IMG/VR virus record: IMGVR_UViG_3300021197_000927
Coordinates: 1 to 26,466 of that record
DNA length: 26,466 nucleotides
Direction: 5' to 3' (one strand)
Origin: a virus
Shown: one piece after another, positions 1 to 26,466 of the stretch
Numbering within the stretch: position 1 is the stretch's first letter
Layout of the letters: each line of letters begins with the position of its first letter
Translations under genes and position numbers: made by a program
The notes under the pieces: model-generated
Database searches by the model: none
Seen by the model: only the letters and a program-made list of their open reading frames with translations
Told to the model about the DNA's origin: nothing

Positions 1-183
1 AAGGCATCAAAACAATCAAGTTTTAATCACTGGCGTGATTAAAGCCTTAATATGTTTTTTTGTGTTCCACTAAAAGCAGTTAATTAATAATTAATATTAA
101 TATTCCTATAATTAAATTCCTTCTTGGAGAAGAAGCCAATAGTCACAGCCCCATTTAGGAACTGTCACTAAAAGAATACTTGG
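1..183. repeat. Terminal direct repeat, left copy
   Basis: Bases 1-183 align without gaps to 26284-26466. Bases 1-126 are identical, and all five mismatches lie at 127, 132, 151, 162 and 166. This is what a circular or terminally redundant genome gives when the assembler closes on itself with population variants. A true direct terminal repeat is the alternative. The repeat covers the 3' part of the proposed large RNA. It includes a very AT-rich TTAATTAATAATTAATATTAA stretch near 80-112 that is nearly all A and T. Confidence 0.9.
22..43 (-). terminator. 3' hairpin of the large RNA, possible terminator
   Basis: Bases 22-30 and 35-43 form a perfect 9-bp stem (minus strand TTTAATCAC, loop GCCA, GTGATTAAA). 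In the minus direction it is followed by ACTTGATTGTTTTGATGCC and then the hairpin at 26274-26294. There is only a weak U-rich tail (TTGTTTT), so it may be a 3' stabilising hairpin rather than an efficient terminator. A copy lies at 26305-26326 in the right terminal repeat. Confidence 0.4.
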
Positions 184-741
184 AGCATTCGCAAATTATC
201 ATATCAACTTAACTCTTCCGAGAAAGGCAGGTTTTTCTATCATCCTTTTACAAGCGTGTCGTGTTTAACGCAATATATCACTGCCGATATGACAGCATTG
301 TGATACATTTGATGGGTCTCTTTCGAGTGTGTCTTCCATCTCACTAGGTTTATATATTAGTATTATATTAGCCTATTCACGCATCTCTACGCTACAACCA
401 TTAAGACAAGTGAAAAGTAGTACCACAGAGGGGGTTCTTTTAAGGCATCCTAAACATAATCTAGGGTAGTCACTTGAATCGGAGTAATAAGCACCTCAGC
501 CATACCCTCTCTTTTAGGAAGGGATTCGACAACACAATAACAATCGGCGTGTCAACCTTAAATCTTATTTGGCAGCAAATAAATGCCACATCGGGTTCTG
601 TGAGGGGATTTGTATTAGTATTGTATTAGTTTTAGTAGAGTTAATAGAAAAGCAAGGATATATCTAAAGGGAATGATGTAATACTAATACGGAGATAACC
701 TTCGTCTAATACACCCTCACTTTTCTATTAACTCTTTCATC

Positions 742-770
742 ATTATAACACGACTTTTTATTAAAGTCAA
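742..770 (-). promoter_or_regulatory. Sigma-70 promoter driving the large RNA
   Basis: On the minus strand a -35 TTGACT (770-765) and a perfect -10 TATAAT (747-742) are separated by 17 bp. The start is expected near 735. It lies just after the stop codon of the glycosyltransferase gene and points into the gene-free region, so it gives the structured RNA its own transcription unit instead of read-through from the tail operon. Confidence 0.85.
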
Positions 771-14645: not shown

Positions 14646-15887
14646 TTAATACATCCCAAAGTTGTGTTGTTTTTGGGGGGTTATTTGTCTAGTCACTGGG
14701 AACATATAGTCTACTCCATATCCTAACGCATCAGGAAAGTGAGAGTAGTCTTCTCTTCCACTCGTGTCAGGTATAAGAGTTCCCTCTTTATAACTGAAAC
14801 GGATTAAACATTTAATTAACTGTTTACATTTTGGGCTAATAAATAATCTAACTTCGTCGTTACTATTTAACAATAATGAGTTAACGGAGTTAATCCTATC
14901 ACGCACCAAGGGATGCCTTGGTTTATATCTCACATCCCATCCCGCATTTTGTAATATAGAGATATCTGTTCTTCCGCCAGCACTCGTTTTACGCTGAACG
15001 CCAGCCGGATCCGGGAAACATACAACTTTTTGGGTTGGATATCTTCTTTTTATCTCCTGTACCATCTCGTCCGTATTGGAAGACCATAAACAGACTTCAT
15101 CAATAATATGAAGACCAGATGATGTTGGCACTGCCACTAATGTGGCCATTGGGGAAACATTAAAGTCGGTGAATACGAAGATAGACTTTAGTTTATCTGC
15201 TTCACCTGTCCATTCTTGGACATTGCGTTCTTTCTTAAATGAATAATATATAACAGATGTGGCTGACTCAAAAGAAGCGAGATATTCCTGAGCGAATGTG
15301 GAACTATCCATATCCCTCATCGCGGCATCAATCTCTTCTTGCGGGACATTGGATCCCTCCAAAGTCGTATACTGCCAAGCACCCCAATTATCATCGGTTG
15401 CTGCCATATCATACAAGTCCTTGAACCAGTTGCCGACACCTTTTGGAGTACCAAGAAACAATGCGTGTCCTGGTGGAGTTTCAGCAGATAATGACGGTCT
15501 TAATACTTCCGTCCATGCTTCTGGCTTTATATCAGCAACTTCATCAACGCAAATGAACGATGAACCCATACCCCTTAAGGAGTCAGGATTATCCGCGCCT
15601 CTTAGCATAATTGTGCTTCCGTTTCTCAAATATATCTCCAGTCTACTTTCATTTACTTTATCTATCCAGTTTAATTCTCTTAACTTGTTCTTTAACGGTC
15701 CCCATACAATATTGCGGCACATCTGGTAGGTTGGGGCCACATATAGGACCGACTTTCCAGGGTTTCTTGCGAACTTGGCTAGTTCTCTAATTGCGAGAAC
15801 TGACTTTCCAAATCTGCGTCCCGCACATAATACACGAAACCTTTTTTTTGACGATGCAACTTCGGCTTGATACTTCGTTAATGGCAT
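14646..15887 (-). CDS. terL: Terminase large subunit
   Basis: A 413-aa packaging motor. The ATPase part shows Walker A CAGRRFGKS (21-29), Walker B FICVDE (111-116) and the coupling motif GTPKG (146-150). The nuclease part shows the acidic residues D241 (VFTDFNVSP), D293 (FPDPAG) and D386 (HFPDALGYG), as expected for the RNase H-like fold. Length is typical of siphovirus-type enzymes. Its start is adjacent to the small subunit's end. Upstream and downstream genes complete a standard packaging-head cassette. Confidence 0.95.
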   Translation of the reverse strand: MPLTKYQAEVASSKKRFRVLCAGRRFGKSVLAIRELAKFARNPGKSVLYVAPTYQMCRNIVWGPLKNKLRELNWIDKVNESRLEIYLRNGSTIMLRGADNPDSLRGMGSSFICVDEVADIKPEAWTEVLRPSLSAETPPGHALFLGTPKGVGNWFKDLYDMAATDDNWGAWQYTTLEGSNVPQEEIDAAMRDMDSSTFAQEYLASFESATSVIYYSFKKERNVQEWTGEADKLKSIFVFTDFNVSPMATLVAVPTSSGLHIIDEVCLWSSNTDEMVQEIKRRYPTQKVVCFPDPAGVQRKTSAGGRTDISILQNAGWDVRYKPRHPLVRDRINSVNSLLLNSNDEVRLFISPKCKQLIKCLIRFSYKEGTLIPDTSGREDYSHFPDALGYGVDYMFPVTRQITPQKQHNFGMY

Positions 15888-21442: not shown

Positions 21443-21475
21443 TTATTTTTTCTTAGGTTTCTTCTTGTAAGCCAT
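21443..21475 (-). CDS. Ten-codon lysine-rich mini-ORF
   Basis: MAYKKKPKKK, with a GGAG site 8 bp upstream of ATG 21475 and stop TAA at 21443, overlapping the 3' end of the HNH gene in another frame. The good ribosome site and a clean stop make translation plausible. A chance ORF from an A-rich stretch is equally possible. Confidence 0.35.
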   Translation of the reverse strand: MAYKKKPKKK

Positions 21476-21947
21476 TTTTTTTCTCCAAATACTTTTTTGC
21501 TCTTTCCATCATCCTATAAATCATCTGATGGTTACACTCGTAATCTTTACAGAGTTGCTTGACTACATATTTTCCTTCAAGACCACCCAACGCATTATAA
21601 TCATCTAATATCCGAACACAATCTTGGTCACTAAATCTCGGCGATGTTCCAAAGTCCTGATACCGTCTATTCATCACTTCAGTATGAGTCTGCATAATTA
21701 AATGTTCCGGATTAGCACATAACTTGTTTCTACAAGTATTCCCTATTCTTAACCCCAAATCAAAAGCCGCATCACCAAAGATACCACTCTCTATTGCCAT
21801 CACACGCTGAATAGTTCTCATCTTTTCTTTATGCCTGACGAAGCCATATCCTTGACGGTGTTTAGCACCAATCCAATGCCAACATCCTGTAATCTCATCT
21901 TTTCTACTTCTCTTTTCTATCAATCTGACATAATTATGTGTAGTCAT
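21453..21947 (-). CDS. HNH endonuclease with C-terminal DNA-binding region
   Basis: A 164-aa protein starting at 21947 after AAAGGAGAAAAT. GCWHWIGAKHRQGYG (21-35) and NTCRNKLCANPEHL (70-83) make the zinc-knuckle HNH core (C72, C77, N79, P80, H82) of phage and homing-type HNH nucleases. The C-terminal part (FSDQDCVRILDDYNALGG... VVKQLCKDYECNHQMIYRMM) looks like a helix-turn-helix. A longer upstream frame from 22082 would overlap the next HNH gene and has no ribosome site. Free-standing homing nuclease or packaging-related nickase are both possible. Confidence 0.8.
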   Translation of the reverse strand: MTTHNYVRLIEKRSRKDEITGCWHWIGAKHRQGYGFVRHKEKMRTIQRVMAIESGIFGDAAFDLGLRIGNTCRNKLCANPEHLIMQTHTEVMNRRYQDFGTSPRFSDQDCVRILDDYNALGGLEGKYVVKQLCKDYECNHQMIYRMMERAKKYLEKKNGLQEET

Positions 21948-21978
21948 ATTTTCTCCTTTTATTCTATTATTTATCTTT

Positions 21979-22410
21979 TTATTTAAGGTGCTTCCAAGAT
22001 GTTCTCGTGTTAATCCTAGAAACTTGAGCCTGAGAGATACCATATATGGCACCAATCTCATACTGATACATCCCTGAGTCACACAGTTCTCTAATCTCTT
22101 GGCATTCTTCTTCTGTTATCGTAGCAAACTGTCTTTTCTCTCTCACCTTCTGAGCAACTTGGTCTCTCTGGTGTCCTATGGTTAAATGAACAGGGTTACA
22201 ACATTGTGGGCGACCGCAAGTGTGGTGAACTTGAACATAGTCAATGTTAACACCCTCTAACACCATGGCTAACCGATGCGTCTTCCACAACTTGCCGTCT
22301 ATCCGAGTTAAACCATAACCACAAGTGTGGATAGAACCGACCCAATCTAAACATTCACCGTGTGGTACCAAAAGGTCATAGAAATCTTGTTTTGTATAAT
22401 TCTTTTTCAT
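21979..22410 (-). CDS. HNH endonuclease, paralogue
   Basis: A 143-aa protein starting at 22410 with GGAGATAAG before the ATG. CLDWVGSIHTCGYGLTR (20-36), HHTCGRPQCCNPVHL (62-76) and a C-terminal helix-turn-helix (ITEEECQEIRELCDSGMYQYEIGAIYGISQAQVSRI) mirror the layout of the neighbouring HNH gene, so the two are likely a tandem pair of diverged copies. They may be homing elements. A phage-encoded role in packaging cannot be excluded. Confidence 0.8.
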   Translation of the reverse strand: MKKNYTKQDFYDLLVPHGECLDWVGSIHTCGYGLTRIDGKLWKTHRLAMVLEGVNIDYVQVHHTCGRPQCCNPVHLTIGHQRDQVAQKVREKRQFATITEEECQEIRELCDSGMYQYEIGAIYGISQAQVSRINTRTSWKHLK

Positions 22411-22491
22411 CTTATCTCCAAATATAGTCAACACTATCGAAATTGTCCGCCGCCGTCCAAGGGTGTAGTGTTGTAGTAGAAACTGCCGAAC

Positions 22492-22514
22492 CTCAGGCAT
22501 CGTTGTCCTGAGGA
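22492..22514. terminator. Hairpin between HNH gene and 51-aa gene
   Basis: Bases 22492-22498 and 22508-22514 form a perfect 7-bp stem (CCTCAGG/CCTGAGG) with a 9-nt loop. It lies in the 127-bp gap between the 51-aa gene and the second HNH gene. No U-tract follows on either strand. Possibly a weak terminator or leader element of the HNH mRNA. Confidence 0.4.
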
Positions 22515-22872: not shown

Positions 22873-23199
22873 CTATATCTTTAACTCCTTGGTTAATAAA
22901 GCAAGGAACCCATCACTATGGTACCCTTTATCTTCGTTAATCAACCCTAAGACTTTATCAATACCATCGTGTGTTTCAAGTTCGCAATCACGCAGATGGT
23001 CCGTATAATAATCTAATAAGTTTTCTAACTTCATTGGCTTTTCATTTAACTGAAGCATATACTCCGAGTGATAACCAAATGGTGTTAAGTAATATTTTTC
23101 TTCATCATTGGCTTTAATCACCGTTACATAACCATGTTTTATATCATAGTCAAATAACACTTTCTTGCCAATCTCTCTTAATTCTTTTTCCGTCTTCAT
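22873..23199 (-). CDS. Hypothetical protein (108 aa)
   Basis: A 108-aa mixed alpha/beta protein (VTVIKANDEEKYYLTPFGYHSEYMLQ, LENLLDYYTDHLRDCE). No domain is recognised, and no signal or membrane segment is seen. The start at 23199 follows GGAGATATA. It is the first gene after the array of tandem promoters (23248-23588), so it and the genes behind it may be expressed strongly or under several controls. Confidence 0.75.
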   Translation of the reverse strand: MKTEKELREIGKKVLFDYDIKHGYVTVIKANDEEKYYLTPFGYHSEYMLQLNEKPMKLENLLDYYTDHLRDCELETHDGIDKVLGLINEDKGYHSDGFLALLTKELKI

Positions 23200-23247
23200 A
23201 TTATATCTCCGTTATAAAGCAAGAACCATTTCTCACTTCATACATAT

Positions 23248-23276
23248 ATTATAACACTAAATACAATTAAAGTCAA
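23248..23276 (-). promoter_or_regulatory. Sigma-70 promoter P0
   Basis: Minus strand TTGACT (23276-23271), 17-bp spacer, TATAAT (23253-23248). The start is expected near 23241, about 42 bp before the 108-aa gene. Its leader resembles that of the promoter at 25543-25570. Confidence 0.85.
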
Positions 23277-23334
23277 GTTTTTTATACATTATTTTTAATA
23301 TAAATGGTGGCATTATCCATCGTCCATCACTTCT

Positions 23335-23362
23335 ATTATATCACACTTAGCGCCACTGTCAA
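23335..23362 (-). promoter_or_regulatory. Sigma-70 promoter P1
   Basis: Minus strand TTGACA (23362-23357), 16-bp spacer, TATAAT (23340-23335). The -35 sits in GTTGACAGTGGCG, shared exactly with P2 and P3. Unlike them it has no GGTCGACC at its start site. Confidence 0.85.
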
Positions 23363-23403
23363 CTTTAATTGCGCCGTGCGGCACATTATTTTCACTGTAT
23401 AGA

Positions 23404-23422
23404 CCTAAATGTTCCATTTAGG
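23404..23422. repeat. Hairpin repeat copy 1 (CCTAAATG stem)
   Basis: Perfect 8-bp stem CCTAAATG/CATTTAGG with a TTC loop. A second copy with the same stem and flanks (TATAGA, GCTCC) lies at 23598-23618. Both lie upstream of a GTTGACAGTGGCG promoter, so they may be terminators or protein-binding sites of a duplicated module. Confidence 0.7.
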
Positions 23423-23437
23423 CTCCTACCTGAATAA

Positions 23438-23445
23438 GGTCGACC
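23438..23445. promoter_or_regulatory. GGTCGACC palindrome at P2 start, operator candidate
   Basis: Eight-base palindrome overlapping the expected P2 start (about 23444), immediately after the -10 box. The same element occurs at the same distance from P3. A repressor operator is the simplest reading. Confidence 0.5.
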
Positions 23446-23450
23446 AGTCT

Positions 23451-23478
23451 ATTATAACATACAATTCGCCACTGTCAA
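23451..23478 (-). promoter_or_regulatory. Sigma-70 promoter P2
   Basis: Minus strand TTGACA (23478-23473), 16-bp spacer, TATAAT (23456-23451). Near-copy of P3 in the shared GTTGACAGTGGCG block and the ACTGGTCGACC block after the -10. Confidence 0.9.
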
Positions 23479-23513
23479 CCATAATAAAGAAATTATTTTT
23501 CACAGTGCCTGTT

Positions 23514-23532
23514 GTTAATGATAATCATTCTC
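23514..23532. promoter_or_regulatory. Fur-box-like operator
   Basis: GTTAATGATAATCATTCTC matches the classical 19-bp Fur consensus GATAATGATAATCATTATC at 17 of 19 positions. It lies between P3 and P2, about 22-40 bases downstream of the expected P3 start. If functional, host Fur with iron would block P3 elongation or nearby initiation. In AT-rich DNA a chance match is possible. Confidence 0.45.
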
Positions 23533-23547
23533 ATTTAGCGCCAGCGT

Positions 23548-23555
23548 GGTCGACC
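23548..23555. promoter_or_regulatory. GGTCGACC palindrome at P3 start, operator candidate
   Basis: Same palindrome as at P2, here extended to TGGTCGACCA (23547-23556). It covers the expected P3 start (about 23554). Confidence 0.5.
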
Positions 23556-23560
23556 AGTTT

Positions 23561-23588
23561 ATTATAACATATGAAACGCCACTGTCAA
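23561..23588 (-). promoter_or_regulatory. Sigma-70 promoter P3
   Basis: Minus strand TTGACA (23588-23583), 16-bp spacer, TATAAT (23566-23561). First of four tandem promoters in transcription order. The distance to P2 is 110 bp and from P2 to P1 116 bp, suggesting tandem duplication. Confidence 0.9.
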
Positions 23589-23597
23589 CACTATAGA

Positions 23598-23618
23598 CCT
23601 AAATGTTAAACATTTAGG
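23598..23618. repeat. Hairpin repeat copy 2 (CCTAAATG stem)
   Basis: Stem CCTAAATG/CATTTAGG with loop TTAAA, the partner of the copy at 23404-23422. It lies 10 bp upstream of the P3 -35 box. Confidence 0.7.
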
Positions 23619-23670
23619 CTCCCATATCGCAATTATTTTCCATCTTAACCCATCTTTTTTCGCTTAACCG

Positions 23671-23709
23671 TCTGTTCATTTTTGCAACATCTGTATCATT
23701 TTTACAACA
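23671..23709. repeat. Two adjacent 19-20 bp direct repeats
   Basis: TCTGTTCATTTTTGCAACA (23671-23689) is followed directly by TCTGTATCATTTTTACAACA (23690-23709). The repeats differ by one insertion and two substitutions. They could be iterons of a replication origin or binding sites for a phage regulator. Nearby are a 12-bp palindrome (23761-23772) and a TTGTTG/CAACAA stem. The rest of 23619-23808 shows no gene. Confidence 0.55.
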
Positions 23710-23808
23710 GGAAACCCCTTTTTGTTGCAAAAAAACAACAATGAGCCCTAACAGAGAATAGGATTATAATCCCCATATGGTATTCTTATGGTATATTAGC
23801 CAATATCT

Positions 23809-23904
23809 TTAATGGTACACCACTGGAATGGTGTTTTCCCAAGGGCTTCTACCTGGTCTTGGTGGGTATATTGGTTCTTTTTTTCTCTTTATTAATTCAA
23901 CCAT
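23809..23904 (-). CDS. Possible small protein (31 aa)
   Basis: ORF of 31 codons starting inside the end of the 179-aa gene (ATG at 23904) and ending TAA at 23809. It is basic at first and proline-rich (EPIYPPRPGRSPWENTIPVVYH). There is only a weak ribosome site. The overlap with the upstream stop would allow translational coupling. Confidence 0.4.
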   Translation of the reverse strand: MVELIKRKKEPIYPPRPGRSPWENTIPVVYH

Positions 23905-26273: not shown

Positions 26274-26294
26274 TTTGATGCCAAAGGCATCAAA
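26274..26294. terminator. Perfect 9-bp hairpin at the circle junction
   Basis: TTTGATGCC (26274-26282), loop AAA, GGCATCAAA (26286-26294). In the minus direction it follows the TTTAATCAC hairpin and lies between the large RNA and the 57-aa gene. No U-tract follows, so it may be a weak terminator or the 3' cap of the large RNA. Confidence 0.5.
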
Positions 26295-26466
26295 ACAATC
26301 AAGTTTTAATCACTGGCGTGATTAAAGCCTTAATATGTTTTTTTGTGTTCCACTAAAAGCAGTTAATTAATAATTAATATTAATATTCCTATAATTAAAT
26401 TCCTTCTTGTAGAAAAAGCCAATAGTCACAGCCACATTTAGGAATTGTAACTAAAAGAATACTTGG
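26284..26466. repeat. Terminal direct repeat, right copy
   Basis: Second copy of bases 1-183 with five substitutions at positions corresponding to 127, 132, 151, 162 and 166. The genome is best read as a circle of about 26,283 bp whose large RNA spans the join. Confidence 0.9.

Follow-up and report, generated by a model that had tools for sequence, protein, structure and literature searches.

The minus strand of the first 770 nucleotides of the viral record IMGVR_UViG_3300021197_000927 (26,466 bases; its full length is called the window below) probably encodes a free-standing, folded RNA that has a sigma70-type promoter of its own and belongs to a phage RNA family absent from Rfam. The relatives of this RNA form a family with covarying helices and a pseudoknot; they have no conserved reading frame, and their genes stand free of the neighboring ones. 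The original prediction of a large, structured and promoter-driven phage RNA in this interval is supported: of the outcomes named as refuting it, neither a lack of covariation in homologues nor a conserved protein frame was found.

Carriers and genomic setting of the RNA family

Relatives of the window's terminase are encoded by many viral contigs, and the full records of these contigs were searched at the DNA level. This search returned one 44-nt match, situated in a 28-kb record; the motif UUAAGGUUGACAnGCCGA...GAAUCC is common to the window and the locus in that record. Patterns derived from this shared motif and from later members were scanned over the viral contigs of IMG/VR, and the covariance model R1 was then applied. 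Chance pattern matches in protein-coding sequence were first recognized by eye, and none of them was recognized by R1. In total, the IMG/VR pattern scans and R1 yielded 34 copies of the RNA in 33 viral records. One member (L073), found independently of the patterns, scores 86.7 bits with R1 (E 1.4e-15). A record of 277 kb carries two diverged copies (L135, 30268-30422; L179, 251052-251194), and a second copy in this record scores 64 bits with R1. In the core, members are between 47 and 76% identical to the window.

The carriers are uncultured phage sequences, at least 33 in number and about 26 kb to 277 kb in size, and include small siphoviruses like the window's phage as well as T4-like phages. 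A relative of the window's terminase is detectable in 13 of 27 carrier records (29-65% identity), while T4 baseplate genes lie beside the RNA in a 102-kb and in a 34-kb carrier; the region of the latter recurs in a 57-kb record. Taken together, the terminases, the T4 baseplate genes and the 277-kb record show carriers so diverse that the RNA must be considered common to different phage lineages. A blastn comparison of several members with 50,697 phage records gave no real match and none in isolate phages, and two exact-pattern scans of about 85,000 genomes of bacteria and archaea found no member. A pattern match in Pseudomonas was unrelated and was not recognized by R1. The RNA is absent from the nearest Pelagibacter phages and from the lake phage DSL-LC06, all of which have terminases of about 47-49% identity, and we found no paper describing this RNA family in the literature searched.

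Nearly all genes of the window, among them those for the large terminase (14646-15887), the portal, the major head protein, the tail and a repetitive protein of 1,428 amino acids, are on the minus strand; the RNA lies at the boundary between the structural module and a module of small genes. Positions 1-183 match positions 26284-26466 with 97% identity and five mismatches. This overlap of its ends makes the record either circular or terminally redundant, and places the RNA gene across the contig junction. The differences (at 127, 132, 151, 162 and 166) all fall inside the 3' part of the RNA gene, and the assembly has probably joined two strain variants here. Just upstream of the RNA (783-2403), the gene for a TET-associated glycosyltransferase (PF20691) adjoins one for a ParB-N protein, a pairing that suggests hypermodified DNA bases in this 26-kb phage. 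At 23199-23892, where genes are sparse, several minus-strand promoters close to the consensus (TTGACAGTGGCG...TATAAT) occur together with a hairpin that is repeated (CCTAAATGTT..ATTTAGG); most of the phage's promoter activity is probably clustered in this stretch. An HNH endonuclease gene (21979-22500, within 21453-22500) adjoins a second gene that is similar by eye.

Helices, junction and pseudoknot

The structure was assessed with three alignments: A1 (23 sequences) covers the core, A3 (18 sequences) the 5' part, and A4 (nine close members) the 3' half. A pairwise covariation scan corrected over all column pairs (22 rows, low power) gave no single significant pair, a result that we attribute to the small number of rows. 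A stem-level test was therefore used, in which alignments were re-evolved on the inferred tree with substitutions placed at random columns, and all four-pair stems were scanned. The features of the window's copy are the following.

742-770, minus: sigma70-type promoter TTGACT-17-TATAAT with TG before the -10 element, 11/12 matches to consensus
637-735, minus: 5' extension with a 16-bp helix (735-720/652-637; 28 bp with G-U pairs), beyond shuffles, not seen in relatives
612-690, minus: stem 690-680/622-612 across the 5' helix, with 365-355 as the other possible partner; no support from relatives
532-552, minus: helix PA (ACAC/GUGU), after motif UUAAGGUUGACAnGCCGA; A3 columns 35-38/55-58 exceed all 60 null maxima
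383-530, minus: R1 match over 142 positions, 121.6 bits, E 4.6e-23, the window being part of the training set
499-530, minus: stem P1b (530-528/501-499) enclosing hairpin PB (523-505); helix 1 of A1, 93% of cells paired
407-476, minus: three-way junction, PD (476-471/412-407) enclosing PE (465-449) and PF (441-413); covariation, reached by 0 of 60 null maxima
311-340, minus: hairpin GAUGG/CCAUC with an inner GNRA loop; helix 1 of A4, 100% paired, double changes in 3 of 5 pairs
274-307, minus: hairpin carrying the pseudoknot loop; helices 2 and 3 of A4, 100% paired, five of 13 pairs with double changes
286-292, minus: pseudoknot strand 1, UCAUAUC; helix 4 of A4, seven pairs, 100% paired, five with double changes
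199-205, minus: pseudoknot strand 2, GAUAUGA, pairing with 286-292
254-271, minus: hairpin GCGU/ACGC; helix 5 of A4, invariant in the close subgroup
213-248, minus: invariant hairpin AAAGG..CCUUU (248-223) and a hairpin with a GNRA cap (222-213); helices 6-8 of A4
145-190, minus: hairpins 190-174 and 165-145, the 3' end of the supported structure; helices 9 and 10 of A4
26274-26294, minus: last hairpin before the next gene, UUUGAUGCC-UUU-GGCAUCAAA, spanning the contig junction (26284-26294 = 1-11)

When run unguided on A1, RNAalifold returned 20 pairs, 15 of which show compensatory double changes. In this core, 94.3% of the cells are paired and 69 are double-change cells (20.1 +/- 3.1 after shuffling, 5-13 after sliding), counts for which the structure was derived from the very alignment in which it was counted. 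The stems PB, PD, PE and PF, which lie in the core (383-530 of the window), exceed the best stem of every tree-preserving null (0 of 60), and P1b exceeds the null maxima in A3. Double changes are found in five of the six pairs of helix 1 of A1, in five of six in PD, three of four in PE and two of four in PF. Hairpin PB has the common form CCGUUCUGAUGUGUGACGG, and the near-invariant segments GACUACCC and GAUGCCUUAAA lie in the core junction. All four core helices of the family as defined by R1 are present in the window, together with these two segments. The first two sequences invited a long-range pairing, UUAAGG/CCUUAA, which was rejected because CCUUAAA is invariant and the changes in UUAAGG are not compensated (UUAAGCC in L129 and L148; CACAAGG in L128).

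The structure of the 3' half comprises 54 pairs in A4, with 98.4% pairing and double changes in 19 pairs; the 51 double-change cells compare with 19.6 +/- 3.3 in shuffled alignments. A GNRA hairpin had been noticed in the window's sequence, and its CUC-GAAA-GAG loop is found inside the hairpin at 340-311, whose inner loop reads GAAA or GUAA in members of the subgroup and whose support is reached by only 0-2 of 30 null maxima. The adjoining hairpin (274-307) is not significant on its own against the tree null (6 of 30). Its loop forms the pseudoknot with the tail (292-286/205-199), which was found as a crossing helix by the stem scan, exceeds all tree-null maxima and covaries across most members. 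Within A4, its strands read CUUAAUC/GAUUAAG in L115, L121, L124 and L127, and CUGUAUU/AAUACAG in L129, L130 and L148. Outside A4, where the loops were picked by eye, the forms are CUGUAU/AUACAG (L102, L105), UACGAUU/AAUCGUA (L131), AUAUCAU/AUGAUAU (L155), UGAUGAAUU/AAUUCAUCA (L138), CCACAAUGU/ACAUUGUGG (L179) and UCAGACAU/AUGUCUGA (L142). Among 12 members, the loop pairs with its own tail over a mean of 7.0 bp and with the tails of other members over 4.6; the sum for own tails was reached in none of 20,000 tail permutations.

Hairpin GCGU/ACGC is neither supported nor refuted by covariation, as it is invariant. Relatives from the same subgroup have GGAA, GUAA or GAAA as the loop of the 222-213 hairpin, and the hairpins 190-174 and 165-145 are 95 and 92% paired, with double changes in four of seven and one of seven pairs, respectively. 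The hairpin at 26274-26294, which has no U tract, is the probable 3' boundary of the RNA; other members likewise have a closing hairpin ahead of the next gene, and in L102 and L105 its tail is U-rich. No counterpart of the pseudoknot was identified in the group formed by L101, L128, L141 and L073; 3' of the core, these four members share CCUGA.A, then UUAAAAAUC around a hairpin that varies. A distant subgroup (L138, 846-1100; L135, 1840-2100; L179, 1650-1850) has a second conserved motif, GCGUCAUnGUAAUAGnGAnAGAGGGCGC, and includes L139, L146 and L150, which carry this motif in altered form.

The 5' extension and the layout of the gene

The predicted consensus promoter at 742-770 is readily recognizable, and its position places the expected start of the transcript at about 735. 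The perfect 16-bp inverted repeat reported to begin at this base also exists, 735-720 being the exact reverse complement of 652-637, and the helix is predicted to extend to 28 bp (735-708/664-637) once G-U pairs are allowed. This repeat is beyond chance, since the longest perfect inverted repeat in 60 dinucleotide shuffles was only 13 (mean 9.1). The idea that a start base opening such a helix is a hallmark of the family was nevertheless rejected, because it is a feature of one sequence: neither the helix nor the stems crossing it were seen in the relatives examined. The covariation that was found in homologues resides in other helices than the one to which the original prediction gave prominence. 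Two 11-bp stems that cross the 16-bp helix (690-680/622-612 and 689-679/365-355) are indeed present in the window, but they share one strand, so that only one of them can form at a time, and relatives lend them no support.

The minimum free energy of the RNA has a z-score of -4.75, and of -2.86 once the first 99 nt are removed. The conserved RNA begins near position 560 of the window, about 175 nt downstream of the predicted start; relatives often have their predicted start at a much shorter distance from this conserved RNA, and the promoter of L129 almost abuts CACAGAACCC. L073 has a 5' hairpin of its own that is unrelated to that of the window. The element CUAAUAC/U recurs before and after the core in many members, and four of its seven minus-strand copies in the window fall within the RNA. 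The complement GUAUUAG of the window's element was not seen in other members; that these copies act as binding repeats is a guess.

The interval had been described as free of genes, and no open reading frame of more than 51 amino acids starts and stops wholly within 1-780. Every frame of the core is broken by stop codons in the window and in its relatives, and there is hence no conserved protein frame. Most relatives are preceded by a good pair of promoter hexamers with a spacing of 16-17 nt; the promoter is weak or absent upstream of L131, L155, L179, L138, L139, L146 and L150. In L105 and L102, the order is intrinsic terminator, promoter, RNA and terminator, and in L102 a fresh consensus promoter precedes the next gene. 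The next clear genes are convergent to the RNA in L142 and L155. In L142 (1106-2816), the convergent genes are of the intein-like and TnsA-like endonuclease types, and a PhoH-like gene was recognized by eye upstream. The RNA tends to come after the tail genes in small siphoviruses, but adjacent genes differ between lineages and no neighboring protein conserved across the family was found, so no single protein partner can be linked to the RNA. The terminators and promoters of L102 and L105, the convergent genes, the varied neighbors and the broken frames together argue for an independent RNA gene.

A role as a cis-acting leader, controlling by antitermination or in a riboswitch-like manner the module transcribed after it, would fit the window and most relatives in so far as the gene that follows, 400-600 nt past the core, has the same orientation, and no terminator with a U tract was found after the window's copy. 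Yet the downstream genes are not conserved, they are convergent in two members, and in two others a terminator separates the RNA from the next gene, in one of them with a new promoter in addition. As a family-wide role, this reading is already contradicted, and we consider it very unlikely. Still less probable, in our view, is a DNA element such as a replication origin or a packaging site, whose hairpins would act in single-stranded DNA. The position at a module boundary in a genome with overlapping ends would suit such an element; a fold that extends over about 400 nt in several domains and has a pseudoknot, GNRA loops and accepted changes to G-U pairs, a promoter before the RNA in most members, and two copies in one genome would not.

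Relation to known large RNAs and possible function

GOLLD and ROOL, two large RNAs of phages whose function is unknown, assemble into cages, and OLE forms a dimer (PMC12286853). Membership in one of the former two families had been considered for the window's RNA, but cmscan against the 4,227 families of Rfam, GOLLD and ROOL included, gave no match for the window or its relatives, and the window showed no GOLLD or ROOL match up to E 10; the other branch of that proposal, a new class, is the one that agrees with this result. The RNA resembles GOLLD and ROOL in kind and is a separate family. With GOLLD (RF02032), it has in common the large size, the presence in phages or prophages, the elaborate fold and the division into a variable 5' and a more conserved 3' part (PMC12286853). 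It differs in the lack of any sequence or model match, and in a pseudoknot that joins a hairpin loop to a tail some 80-110 nt farther downstream. Both GOLLD and ROOL are often located near tRNA islands (PMC12286853), a feature that is usual, not obligatory, for GOLLD; ARAGORN detected no tRNA genes in the window, nor any at 28 related loci. With ROOL, the RNA shares a stand-alone existence in phages, a similar length, pseudoknots and the lack of an identified protein partner (PMC12286853). The layout as a large pseudoknotted RNA in its own transcription unit is likewise ROOL-like, but is a general feature and does not make the RNA a ROOL; moreover, the family has been found only in viral contigs, the two exact-pattern scans of bacterial and archaeal genomes having yielded none, whereas ROOL occurs in prophages.

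A GOLLD or ROOL branch so divergent that the Rfam models miss it would account for the size class, the presence in phages, the pseudoknot and the GOLLD-like gradient of conservation (PMC12286853). It is set against the lack of a model match in the window and its relatives, the lack of tRNA genes at the scanned homologous loci, and a search for GOLLD in the whole contig that found none, a search run with no positive control; we regard this explanation as quite improbable. Only slightly better placed, and still unlikely, is a catalytic RNA, either a remnant of a self-splicing intron or a new ribozyme. The large pseudoknotted fold and the invariant junction nucleotides are compatible with catalysis, as are the HNH endonuclease-like genes found a few kb from several members; these genes differ, however, and their placement is inconsistent. 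Rfam contains no matching group I intron, group II intron or ribozyme, and the RNA is placed between genes, not inside one. In some members UUCAAGAGACUA resembles the R element of group I introns, and AUAUAGUC the S element, a likeness that has the appearance of chance. The segment covaries with another partner (helix PD) and the likeness is lost in other members; the intron reading of UUCAAGAGACUA was rejected on the basis of this partner and of cmscan. The packaging RNA (pRNA) of phi29 is a structural phage RNA and functions as a multimer. It is far shorter and is tied to one packaging ATPase, whereas the carriers of the present family share no one terminase.

The most likely reading remains a folded RNA particle that acts in trans. 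The sigma70-type promoter would give rise to a non-coding transcript of about 600-750 nt, which would fold into a compact particle with a 5' hairpin domain (PA, P1b/PB), followed by the core, a PD/PE/PF three-way junction with its two near-invariant segments, and by a 3' domain locked by the loop-to-tail pseudoknot. We infer that transcription takes place during infection and that the folded RNA acts in trans. As proposed for GOLLD, ROOL and OLE, the particle, made of RNA only or of RNA and protein, may bind or sequester a component of the host or of the phage. By analogy with these RNAs, it might also form multimers, as the original prediction suggested. A more far-reaching version, in which an undescribed class of large phage RNAs, unrelated to the catalogued families and common to different lineages, forms a particle of RNA only, is put forward tentatively and is rather doubtful.

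Large, ornate phage RNAs, whose purpose is still puzzling, are known in only a few classes. The model R1 allows cultured phages and metatranscriptomes to be searched for further members, and the compact core and the pseudoknot are direct targets for structural work. The existence of an independent class with solid covariation even in genomes of about 26 kb, which have little room to spare, and, twice, in a phage of 277 kb suggests that phages repeatedly resort to big structural RNAs as a strategy. Should the particle indeed consist of RNA only in small siphoviruses, T4-like phages and the 277-kb phage, a common function in infection would be carried out by RNA alone.
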